A DNA stretch of 64,000 nucleotides from Planococcus plakortidis (lineage in GTDB: Bacteria > Bacillota > Bacilli > Bacillales_A > Planococcaceae): contig NZ_CP016539.2 in NCBI RefSeq assembly GCF_001687605.2, forward strand, positions 2,572,501 to 2,636,500. The letters run 5' to 3'. This document shows, one piece after another, positions 17,578 to 58,671 of the stretch. The position numbers were made by a program, and so were the translations under genes. The notes beneath the pieces were generated by a model, which saw nothing but the letters and a program-made list of their open reading frames with translations, ran no database searches and had not been told where the DNA came from. Positions within the stretch are counted from its first letter, which is position 1. Each line of letters opens with the position of its first letter.

Positions 17578-17699
17578 CTTCCGCTGTTCGACTACGCTTC
17601 AGGAGCTGCTTGAGGCTCGCAGGAAGCGAGTCATGCAGCTGACGCGACAGGACGTCGTGTTTTCAGCTGCCCGGGAACGGGGCGGGTGCCCGGCCAAGG
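17578..17699 (+). repeat. intergenic repeat, family C, copy 1
   Basis: About 120 bases closely similar to the reverse complement of 58550-58671; shared pieces include TTCGACTACG, GTCATGCAGCT, GCGACAGGACGTCG and TTTCAGCTGCCCGGG. It fills the gap 17546-17866, where no gene is supported. Confidence 0.75.
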
Positions 17700-22662: not shown

Positions 22663-22685
22663 GCTGCCTGCAATATGCAGGCAGC
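22663..22685 (-). terminator. hairpin with minus-strand T-tract
   Basis: GCTGCCTGCaataTGCAGGCAGC. On the minus strand it is followed by TTTTTT. On the plus strand the T-tract is missing and the family A repeat remnant starts right after the stem, as if an insertion had cut a bidirectional terminator. Confidence 0.6.
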
Positions 22686-22775
22686 GAAGCGGTCGAGGAG
22701 GCTTGGGCGCGAGCCCGCGGAGCCGTGCGATAAGCTTCGGAAAATAAGGCTTTTCATCTTTCCCGAGCCTTATTT
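22686..22775 (+). repeat. family A repeat remnant (3' half) with hairpin
   Basis: CGAAGCGG-CGAGGAGGCTTGGGCGCGAGCC...GATAAGCTTCGGAAAATA matches the right half of the terminator-flanked elements at 26.8 and 35.5 kb. It ends in a hairpin with arms AAATAAGGC/GCCTTATTT (22742-22775), which may terminate the leftward acyltransferase gene. Confidence 0.6.
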
Positions 22776-25919: not shown

Positions 25920-26753
25920 ATGACACTCAAAAAGACACTCACCATAGCAGGATCCGATACGTCCGGCGGCGCCGGCATCCAGGCCGACCTGAAAACGTTC
26001 CAGGAACACGGCACATACGGCATGAACGCATTGACGGTCATCGTCACGATGGACCCGGATAACCATTGGAGCCATGGCATCCACCCGATCGCGCTCGATA
26101 CGCTTGATGCCCAGTTGAAAACAGCGTTCTCTACCGGAATCGATTCGTTGAAAACCGGCATGCTGCCGACCGTCGATATCATCGAAATGGCCGGCAAAGC
26201 CATCGAAGCATCCGGCATTACCGATGTGGTCATTGACCCCGTAATGGCTTGCAAAGGCGAAGACGAAGTGCTGTTCCCAGAAAACGTCGATGCGATGGTC
26301 AAATACTTGCTGCCGAACGCAAAAGTCGTGACACCGAACCTCGTGGAAGCCGGCCAATTGTCTGGGCTCGGCACGCTTCACACGGTCGAAGACCTGCAAA
26401 AAGCGGCAGAAAAGATCCACGCACACGGAGCGAAATTCGTCGTCATCAAAGGCGGCAAGCAATTGAAGCATGAAAAAGCAGCTGACCTTCTGTACGACGG
26501 GGAAAAACATTACCTGTTGACGGCAGAGAAAACCGATACGACCTATAACCACGGTGCCGGCTGCACATTCGCTGCGGCGATCACCGCGAATCTTGCCAAT
26601 GGCCAATCGGTCAAAGATGCGGTCTACAACGCAAAAATCTTTGTTTCTACAGCGATTGCACATGGCTGGAAGCTCAATGAATACGTAGGTCCTGTCATGC
26701 ATGGGGCTGCAAATAAGTTCCAAAAAGCTGAAGTCCAGGTTGTGGAATTGTAA
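25920..26753 (+). CDS. pdxK: pyridoxine/HMP kinase PdxK (ThiD-like)
   Basis: 277 residues, ribokinase family. It phosphorylates pyridoxal/pyridoxine (and HMP) with ATP in B6 salvage. The block GSDTSGGAGIQADLKTFQ is at the N-terminus; the C-terminal anion-hole NHGAGCTFAAAITA has the catalytic region with a Cys as in B. subtilis PdxK rather than the usual GTGD Asp of ThiD. Position near ung supports PdxK. GGAG upstream. Followed by a terminator that is duplicated around an inserted repeat element. Confidence 0.9.
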   Translation: MTLKKTLTIAGSDTSGGAGIQADLKTFQEHGTYGMNALTVIVTMDPDNHWSHGIHPIALDTLDAQLKTAFSTGIDSLKTGMLPTVDIIEMAGKAIEASGITDVVIDPVMACKGEDEVLFPENVDAMVKYLLPNAKVVTPNLVEAGQLSGLGTLHTVEDLQKAAEKIHAHGAKFVVIKGGKQLKHEKAADLLYDGEKHYLLTAEKTDTTYNHGAGCTFAAAITANLANGQSVKDAVYNAKIFVSTAIAHGWKLNEYVGPVMHGAANKFQKAEVQVVEL

Positions 26754-26766
26754 TTCAGGCTAGATA

Positions 26767-26798
26767 GAAAAGGAGGGCGCTTCGGCGCCCTCCTTTTC
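26767..26798 (+). terminator. pdxK terminator, left copy
   Basis: GGAGGGCGC-TTCG-GCGCCCTCC stem flanked by A and T runs. The 32-bp block is identical to 27152-27183. Confidence 0.9.
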
Positions 26799-26970
26799 CA
26801 GAGTGTTGAAAAAGTCTATCAATCCATTACGAACTAGAATGGAGTCATTTTTCTACATTCAAAAATCAATGATCTTTCTAAGTATTTGGAGAAGCGTTCG
26901 CTCGACTCCTGTGGATCAGCGAGACGACCGAGACCCCGCAAGGAATGAATGAGCGAAGCTTAGCTGAGCG

Positions 26971-27053
26971 CATTCATTTGCGACGCATCTGCCACGCAGA
27001 TGTGGGAGCAAGCGGTTTTTCTGCGATGCTCGAACGCAGTGAGAGTTGAGCAC
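26971..27053 (+). repeat. family D repeat, copy 1 (nested)
   Basis: CATTCATTTGCGACGCATCTGC...GATGTGGGAGCAA-CGG...TGCGATGCTCGAACGCAGTGAGAGTTGAGCA. The same order of pieces is found at 58388-58510. Confidence 0.7.
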
Positions 27054-27151
27054 AAGGGTTTCGAAGCGACTGAGGAGGCTCGGGCGCGAGCCCACGGAAA
27101 GCGAGCGATAAGCTTCGGAAAATACGATTTCCTACCTTTCTCGACAAGCTG

Positions 27152-27183
27152 GAAAAGGAGGGCGCTTCGGCGCCCTCCTTTTC
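27152..27183. terminator. pdxK terminator, right copy
   Basis: Identical to 26767-26798. It also lies just beyond the oppC-like stop codon (27248, minus strand), so it can serve the convergent gene. Confidence 0.9.
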
Positions 27184-35522: not shown

Positions 35523-35555
35523 AAAAGCCCCAGTGCATATAGCACTGGGGATTTT
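35523..35555 (+). terminator. amino-acid ABC operon terminator, left copy
   Basis: CCCCAGTGC-atata-GCACTGGGG followed by ATTTT. Nearly identical (one mismatch in 33) to 35793-35825. Confidence 0.9.
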
Positions 35556-35792
35556 CAGAGTGTTGAAGAAGTCTATTGATCCATTACGAATGAGAATGGG
35601 ATCTTTTTTTTCATTCAAAAATACAATGATATTTCTAAGTATTTGGAGAAGCGTTCGCTCGACTCCTGTGGATCAGCGAGACGACCGAGACCCCGCAAGG
35701 CGCAAAGCGACTGAGGAGGCTTGGGCGCGAGCCCACGGAAAGCGAGCGATAAGCTTCTGAAAATACAATTTCTCACCTTTCTCGACAGCCTG

Positions 35793-35825
35793 AAAATCCC
35801 CAGTGCATATAGCACTGGGGATTTT
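35793..35825. terminator. amino-acid ABC operon terminator, right copy
   Basis: Same hairpin as 35523-35555, now adjacent to the 3' end of the leftward yfcC-type gene (35832), for which its plus-strand A-run gives a minus-strand T-tract. Confidence 0.9.
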
Positions 35826-52796: not shown

Positions 52797-52824
52797 AAAA
52801 AAACCTCCCGAGGGAGGTTTTTTT
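52797..52824 (-). terminator. flavin reductase terminator, distal copy
   Basis: A7-CCTCCCGAGGGAGG-T7, identical to 53144-53171. Confidence 0.9.
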
Positions 52825-53143
52825 CTTAGCTTGTCAAGAAACCTCGGCAGCTTTTTTGCGTTTCGCTCCAGCCGGACGCTTTCCGCGGGCACGGCCTCAG
52901 CCGCTTCGTCGCTGGCGCTCCTGCAGGGTCTTCGGCTCGCGCTGTTCCCGCAGGAGTCGCCGGCTTCCGCTTCACTGCGATTTTTTGACTACTCAATCCT
53001 ATCGAACTGGTGTATGCTGACACAAAAAAAGAAGTGAGCGAACGCTTCTCCAAATACTTAGATAGATCATTGATTTTTAAATGTCGAAAAGGTGATCCTT
53101 TTTTAATTCATGACTGACTTAATAGACTTCTTTAACATTCCAT

Positions 53144-53171
53144 AAAAAAACCTCCCGAGGGAGGTTTTTTT
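53144..53171 (-). terminator. flavin reductase terminator, proximal copy
   Basis: Same 28-bp block as 52797-52824; its edge overlaps the stop codon (TGA 53173-53171) of the leftward flavin reductase gene. Confidence 0.9.
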
Positions 53172-53740
53172 CAATGGTCGTCGATATCGAGTGTATCTTT
53201 TGACAGGTGGGTGCTCATCTCAGCATATTGTACGAATACGCGAGCTAGTTCGCGCAGGCGGTCATGGACATCCTCATTGATGATGGCGTTCGTATCATCG
53301 AAATGGCTCGTATGCGTATAGACGTAATTCGGCGTCACGAGGCAGCGGAAATAATCAAGAATCGGCTTCAGCTGATTTTCGATGACCAAGTGATGCTGGT
53401 ACGTGCCGCCGTTTGCGACGATCGACACCGGTTTGTAGCGCATCGTCCGCGGATGCAACATGTCGAATGCATTTTTCAAGACGCCAGGAATCGACCCTTG
53501 GAAAATCGGAGAGGCGATGATATAGCCATCCGCCTCTTCAAAACGGCGCACCATTTCCCGCATGCTGTCATTGTATTCCGCATTCGGGCGGCCATCCACG
53601 AACTGATGCTCGTATTCACTCATGCTTAAAATGCTCAATTCCATTTCTGGATTCGCTTGCTCCAGATAGACTTTGACCTGTTCCAATACAGCGCCGGTCT
53701 TGCGCCCAAGTATTGTTCCATCCACTAATAAAATCTTCAT
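53171..53740 (-). CDS. NADPH-dependent FMN reductase family protein
   Basis: 189 residues, flavodoxin-like. FMN-phosphate loop LLVDGTILGRKTG at the start and the second flavin contact SPIFQGSIPGVLKNAFDML around residue 77. May be an azobenzene/quinone-type reductase or an FMN supplier; the substrate is unknown. ATG preceded by GGAGGA. Single gene with its own terminator. Confidence 0.85.
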   Translation of the reverse strand: MKILLVDGTILGRKTGAVLEQVKVYLEQANPEMELSILSMSEYEHQFVDGRPNAEYNDSMREMVRRFEEADGYIIASPIFQGSIPGVLKNAFDMLHPRTMRYKPVSIVANGGTYQHHLVIENQLKPILDYFRCLVTPNYVYTHTSHFDDTNAIINEDVHDRLRELARVFVQYAEMSTHLSKDTLDIDDH

Positions 53741-57705: not shown

Positions 57706-57718
57706 GATGTGAAAGTTT

Positions 57719-58196
57719 TTTTGTGAAATCGTCTCACATTCTATTTTTGCTTCAGCTCGCTAATCGCCGCTCGGCTTTGGGTTGGCCTCTTGCCATAAGC
57801 CAGGAAGAACACCTGTCTCATGGCATCGGCTCACCCTTGGCGCTGGGCGGCTTAGATATTTCGTTTGGTCTAGCCTGTTCAAATAGATCTACTTCATTTA
57901 ATTAGTTGCCGGCTAGTGGGGGAATCGCTTCCCGAGTCTAGTTTCGACTGAGATATTAGAGTTTGTTTGTGGAATCGTTCCTAACCTTTATCTTGCTTCA
58001 GCTCGCTAATCGCCGCCCGGCTTTGGGTTGGCCTCTTGCCATAAGCCAGGAAGAACACCTGTCTCATGGCATCGGCTCACCCTTGGCGCTGGGCGGCTTA
58101 GAAATTTCATTGTGTGCAGCCTGCTCAAATAGATCTACTTCTTTAATCAGTTGCCGGCTAGCGGGGAAATCGCTTCCCTAAAATAGCGTCTGGCAC
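57719..58196 (+). repeat. 246-bp direct tandem duplication
   Basis: Two units (about 57719-57950 and 57965-58196), offset exactly 246 bp over a long identical core: TTCAGCTCGCTAATCGCCGC, GGCCTCTTGCCATAAGCC, GGAAGAACACCTGTCTCATG, GGCATCGGCTCACCC. The edges have diverged. Lies in a 1.06-kb gap (57706-58768) with no supported gene. Related short frames (57723-57905, 57963-58181) lack ribosome sites. Confidence 0.85.
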
Positions 58197-58549: not shown

Positions 58550-58671
58550 CATTGGCGGGGCACCCGCCCCATCCCCGGGCAGCTGAAAGCGCGACGTCCT
58601 GTCGCATTAGCTGCATGACCCGCATCCAGCGGGCCCCAAGCGCCCCCTGCAACGTAGTCGAAAAGCGGAAG
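58550..58671 (-). repeat. intergenic repeat, family C, copy 2
   Basis: Reverse complement of the 17578-17699 repeat, with roughly three quarters of positions shared, including GCGACAGGACGTCG and TTTCAGCTGCCCGGG. Confidence 0.75.

Follow-up and report, generated by a model that had tools for sequence, protein, structure and literature searches.

The insert at the pdxK terminator and its copies

In the window, by which we mean the whole 64,000-nucleotide stretch of Planococcus plakortidis DNA that was analysed, a pdxK-like gene (25920-26753) is followed downstream by an intrinsic terminator hairpin, GAAAAGGAGGGCGCTTCGGCGCCCTCCTTTTC, and the same hairpin stands again, matching at 32 of 32 positions, on the far side of a 353-bp non-coding insert (Table 1). 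The insert starts with CAGAGTGTTGAAAAAG and finishes with CTTTCTCGACAAGCTG, imperfect inverted repeats of the pattern CAGnnTGT... / ...ACAnnCTG. The first-pass annotation had described just this arrangement, a 32-bp terminator on either side of an insert with imperfectly repeated ends, and it proved exact down to the coordinates. There is no credible gene in the insert, whose short internal frames are not gene-like and include no transposase frame; in its length, its want of a transposase gene and its terminal inverted repeats, it is a MITE. As for a structured-RNA reading, Rfam gave no match for the element at family threshold, and its transcript has a better fold than shuffled sequences do (z -3.8), as is expected for an inverted-repeat element.

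The same design with other terminators had been claimed for two further loci, at 35.5 and 52.8 kb, and it is indeed present at both, with flanking hairpins identical at 32 of 33 positions around copy 2 and at 29 of 29 around copy 3. Copy 2 has 15 of 15 terminal bases in common with the complete IS elements described below. The right-end half of copy 3 still carries 215 bp from the right end of a complete IS (93.5% identity), and copy 3 is thus derived from such an IS by internal deletion.

Table 1. Element copies and flanking terminators in the window, and loci of the hairpin-removing group
Feature	Position	Strand	Remarks
Left target copy, pdxK terminator hairpin, 32 bp	26767..26798	+	32/32 identical to 27152-27183
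MITE copy 1, non-autonomous, 353 bp	26799..27151	+	Ends CAGAGTGTTGAAAAAG / CTTTCTCGACAAGCTG; no transposase frame
Right target copy, pdxK terminator hairpin, 32 bp	27152..27183	+	32/32 identical to left copy
Left terminator copy of ABC-transporter ATPase gene, 33 bp	35523..35555	+	One base changed
MITE copy 2, 237 bp	35556..35792	+	88-91% identity to copy 1 over shared parts
Right terminator copy at copy 2, 33 bp	35793..35825	+	
Terminator copy at copy 3, 29 bp	52797..52825	+	29/29 identical to 53144-53172
MITE copy 3, reversed, about 318 bp	52826..53143	-	Decayed ends
Second terminator copy at copy 3, 29 bp	53144..53172	+	
GGGGCTGTCCC group loci	L119:2332-2660 (G016); L198-L204, L209, L210		

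Empty sites, abundance and duplicated flanks

The pdxK site is empty in the relatives G014, G019, G001, G040 and G015, each of which has one terminator, no element and the same transporter neighbour. The gap between pdxK and the transporter is 106-118 bp in the empty-site relatives versus 494 bp here, a difference close to the 385 bp expected for the element plus its duplication. A single terminator, with the element absent, is also found in relatives at the copy-2 site (at least six of them) and at the copy-3 site (at least seven), and so at all three loci the empty-site strains hold one terminator, not two. At the copy-2 and copy-3 sites, other relatives hold elements in the opposite orientation, and these are independent insertions into the same hairpin.

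Any one copy, viewed alone, looks bounded by two identical hairpins, as it would if the element brought its own terminators at both ends or had landed between terminators already standing in tandem. The target hairpins, however, differ at nearly every site, and the orthologous sites carry one terminator; both versions of this explanation are refuted, and we assign them virtually no probability. The terminator is the duplicated target and not part of the element, as had been proposed from the window alone. In one relative (G016, L328), beside the gene matching window position 53171, we also noted a near-perfect palindrome of about 40 bp, CACCCCAAAAGTTAGAGTTGAACTCTAACTTTTGGGGTG, inside the copy-3 terminator, perhaps what remains of a further mobile element.

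A whole-genome search returned 77 matches to the MITE in this genome, falling into 40 clusters, and 44 of 46 Planococcus genomes have matches; a search for it on plasmids gave none. Where both ends of a copy were read, here or in the related genomes, the target hairpin is duplicated in 61 of 69 cases, a set in which the pdxK copy was entered twice and two orthologous copies were scored with too short a boundary. This genome by itself contributes 22 of 27, to which copy 3 of the window is additional. As a random control, 6 of 20,000 position pairs of the window pass the duplicated-flank test (a score of 14 or more; the test applied to the copies also permits small indels, so that the two scorings differ slightly), and against 61 of 69 this excludes a chance origin of the duplicated flanks. 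The first-pass annotation had named a majority of copies lacking paired hairpins as grounds for abandoning the idea, and the majority turns out to have them. Given the many copies and the empty sites, the insert is mobile.

The duplications left by the MITE are 27-38 bp long. In all 59 copies with a usable boundary their centre falls no more than 1 nt from the hairpin dyad, and in 56 of them no more than 0.5 nt; duplication length correlates with palindrome length at 0.45. The target of the MITE is a hairpin, usually an intrinsic terminator, and the hairpin is duplicated whole. Because a terminator stays on both sides, it is plausible that insertion costs the host little; a small cost may explain why so many copies are tolerated, and insertion should be near-neutral, which fits 40 loci in one genome. 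Such elements would also offer, downstream of genes, a landing site that is nearly neutral. They account for a large repeat family and for the doubled terminators of Planococcus genomes.

An IS1182-family partner

No intact partner transposase was found in this genome, where PF13751 matches only a broken remnant that belongs to another IS1182 group, the hairpin-removing one described below (C1:2384750-2385537, equivalent to L047:2751-3537; 95% identity over 162 aa). Complete IS elements with the same ends do occur in the genus: one of 1660 bp in G001 (L197), with a 36-bp terminator on each side; one of 1532 bp in P. salinarum (L206/L211), with a duplicated 32-bp terminator; and a third in G036 (L208), where the terminators on the two sides differ. 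Whole-terminator duplications by the partner IS in the genus thus measure 32-36 bp. The partner protein, read through a -1 frameshift for the family test, scores 457 bits against NCBIfam NF033551 (cut-off 270), and its matches to PF13751, PF05598 and PF01609 all exceed their cut-offs. An IS with the same ends and a transposase, for which the first-pass annotation had recommended a search, therefore exists and belongs to the IS1182 family.

The MITE has 14-15 of 15 terminal bases in common with the complete IS, and since both ends and target behaviour are shared, we infer that the IS1182-family transposase of the complete IS moves the MITE. The suggestion that the insert is a non-autonomous IS1182-family relative is borne out by the shared ends, the family of the transposase and the duplication of whole hairpins by the complete IS.

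Several observations concern the transposase genes themselves. In the duplicating group the transposase is spread over two overlapping frames, with an in-frame A_AAA_AAG followed by a stop a few bases later (L211:3079, L224:3061, L225:3076, L226:3070, L236:3076, L240:3061, L261:3076 and L223:3061); the motif has the same position in the elements of Planococcus, Bacillus, Cytobacillus and Niallia, and the split frames are probably read by programmed -1 frameshifting. The Burkholderia, Collimonas and Lentisphaera transposases are single frames. In G025, several contigs end inside such an IS (L086, L099, L105), the left end abutting a different terminator hairpin each time, and these contig ends are likely collapsed IS copies. 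A distant IS1182-type element in G044, with ends CAGAGTGTAGACAAAAG, starts right behind a terminator hairpin (L081:1325-1375), its other end lying beyond the contig. For two other IS1182-type transposases of the genus, the L082 and L089 types, a rapid scan revealed no long hairpin repeats.

Relatives beyond the genus and a proposed mechanism

A transposase scan of species genomes yielded 57 loci. Among the 45 examined, there are 35 in which the element ends adjoin a direct repeat that is itself a hairpin, and the other 10 have either no direct repeat or a non-palindromic one. The 33 IS copies that were measured carry duplications of 14-52 bp, in every case with an offset of 0.0 from the dyad. 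Hosts of duplicating elements include Bacillus, Cytobacillus, Niallia, Clostridium, Burkholderia, Collimonas, a Desulfuromonadales genome and Lentisphaera; relatives that duplicate hairpins occur in Bacillota, Pseudomonadota and Lentisphaerota. Plasmid-borne relatives, picked for diversity, have hairpin duplications of 17-28 bp in 8 of 8 cases. Because some targets (L212, L229, L246) are weak or AT-rich palindromes that are not terminator-like, what is targeted is probably the hairpin as such, not termination. The first-pass annotation had ascribed long variable duplications and palindromic targets to the IS1182 family; the refinement made here is that the duplications are centred on the dyad and that the target is probably not only terminators.

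The length of a target-site duplication is normally set by the geometry of the transposase. In Clostridium carboxidivorans, 11 full IS copies that are 99-100% identical have duplications of 18, 21, 22, 24, 27, 34, 36, 36, 37, 41 and 52 bp, a spread among near-identical copies that no fixed stagger explains; a fixed 32-bp stagger is likewise ruled out by the 14-52 bp range in the IS relatives. Duplication length in these 11 copies follows palindrome length with a slope of 1.0, the correlation being moderate (r 0.65), as it is across the 33 IS copies (r 0.68).

The explanation that we consider best, and to which we attach good though not full confidence, is that strand transfer takes place at both 5' feet of a hairpin that has been extruded, and that gap repair follows; the strand-transfer logic is that of pathway b in Wan 2017. 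The target palindrome would be extruded as a cruciform, the 3' ends of the element would be joined to the 5' feet of both hairpins, and unfolding with gap repair would then leave one hairpin on each side, with the MITE being moved in trans by an IS1182-family transposase. It is with the same good confidence, given to this mechanism and the movement in trans jointly, that we regard the insert as a MITE that is an internally deleted relative of the ISBspe1-like branch of the IS1182 family (DDE transposase). Variable, dyad-centred duplications lend indirect support to an extruded-hairpin target at strand transfer, and the duplication of hairpins by helper elements and by relatives in several phyla suggests that the enzyme reads the folded shape of its target and not its sequence. 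Here one enzyme gives 18-52 bp, as set by the target hairpin, so that the proposed cruciform-directed transposition becomes directly testable. Against the preferred explanation stand the no more than moderate correlation with palindrome length, the roughly 10 of 45 relatives that have no hairpin repeat, and the lack of an intact partner transposase in this genome.

A model that needs no fold has a flexible transposase dimer bind the palindrome arms in linear, unextruded duplex and make a long staggered cut. In its favour, duplication lengths outside C. carboxidivorans cluster weakly near two and three helical turns (Rayleigh p about 0.01, uncorrected for kinship), as this model would predict, and palindromes often run past the duplicated part. 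In C. carboxidivorans, however, the 18-52 bp left by a single transposase show no helical phase (Rayleigh p about 0.9, n = 11), and the targets have no common sequence for two subunits to read, so that we consider the linear-duplex model unlikely. Still less probable, to our minds, is a hairpin that arises at the replication fork on a single strand, the lagging-strand template, in place of a duplex cruciform: single strands do fold readily into hairpins, but both joints are exactly symmetric about the dyad and both orientations occur at one hairpin, for which two opposed hairpins are the simpler fit. Finally, insertion might be random, with a fixed long duplication, and selection might keep only the terminator sites; intergenic insertion is generally tolerated and the copies read here are located at terminators, yet selection cannot centre a duplication on the dyad to half a base, nor can it vary its length from 14 to 52 bp. 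This last explanation is refuted and retains next to no probability, and strand transfer to an extruded hairpin remains our preferred account.

A hairpin-removing group in the same genus

The genus also contains a second IS1182-family group, 2063 bp long with ends GGGGCTGTCCC and a 606-aa transposase, present in 7 copies in G001. Like the duplicating group it belongs to the IS1182 family, has the same kind of target and has given rise to MITE derivatives. Its junctions, by contrast, consist of A/T-rich arms only, complementary in most cases, with no long duplication; the hairpin is gone, removed by the group with only complementary A/T arms left behind. This is the IS1272-type outcome, in which the hairpin is deleted and nothing is duplicated. 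Comparison of G016 with G015 shows that a 294-bp MITE of the GGGGCTGTCCC type has replaced the very same pdxK terminator hairpin in G016. In the transposase tree, a single clade (100/98) unites the IS1182 prototype with the GGGGCTGTCCC replacing group; elsewhere the tree has poor resolution and very long branches, and it lends no support to a single origin of the duplicating mode. The duplicating and replacing branches, occurring in one genus and once at the same terminator, offer a matched comparison.

Relation to known elements

Hairpin targeting by the IS1182 family is already known from IS1272, with the opposite outcome. IS1272 / TnSha1 targets hairpins, often terminators, and deletes the hairpin with no duplication (Furi 2016, PMC4923244). 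Duplication of a whole hairpin has been drawn as a hypothetical branch (Fig. 13, pathway b), by authors whose own element, IS1272, removes the hairpin (Wan 2017, PMC5678879). On the palindromic targets that some IS1182 members have, the two papers refer to Siguier and colleagues (PMC4923244, PMC5678879). The elements studied here resemble IS1272 in their IS1182-family transposase, in hairpin targets without sequence preference and in variable target length. They differ from it in outcome: IS1272 deletes the hairpin, whereas this branch keeps and duplicates it, both sides retaining the hairpin in the 61 of 69 MITE copies given above, and the whole stem-loop is duplicated as in pathway b of Wan 2017.

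Also comparable are the ISBspe1-like elements, so called after an annotation on a plasmid of Alkalihalophilus pseudofirmus OF4, which share about 52% transposase identity and CAG..TGT / ACA..CTG ends and have a duplicated 20-bp hairpin, but which are complete IS and not MITEs. Bacterial MITEs in general are likewise short, geneless and IS-derived, with terminal inverted repeats and many intergenic copies; in the sections consulted, a review of them names no MITE that targets and duplicates terminators, and the pneumococcal SPRITE described there merely resembles a terminator (PMC10969869). No published whole-terminator duplication was found in the literature searched, a scope outside which most subscription papers and ISfinder fall, and our claim of novelty is provisional.

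About a hundred natural examples of hairpin duplication are now on hand. We lean, with less confidence than we place in the mechanism itself, towards a broader proposal, in which an IS1182-family branch that occurs in several phyla would use DNA shape as its target code, inserting at the 5' feet of cruciforms and duplicating hairpins of any length, and a sister branch in the same genus would remove the hairpin. The two branches would then be a natural pair, one for each outcome that structure-directed transposition can have, and the duplicating branch would have built a terminator-doubling repeat family in Planococcus.

Other repeats in the window

A truncated right-end fragment of the MITE, its left end absent, lies right behind a terminator hairpin at 22677-22766. 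Another repeat family is represented by a 120-bp inverted repeat pair (17578-17697 and 58552-58671, 85%), the second member of which is adjoined by a fragment of the middle part of the MITE. Downstream of a gene end, at 57706-58144, a 193-bp sequence stands in two tandem copies that are 88% identical.
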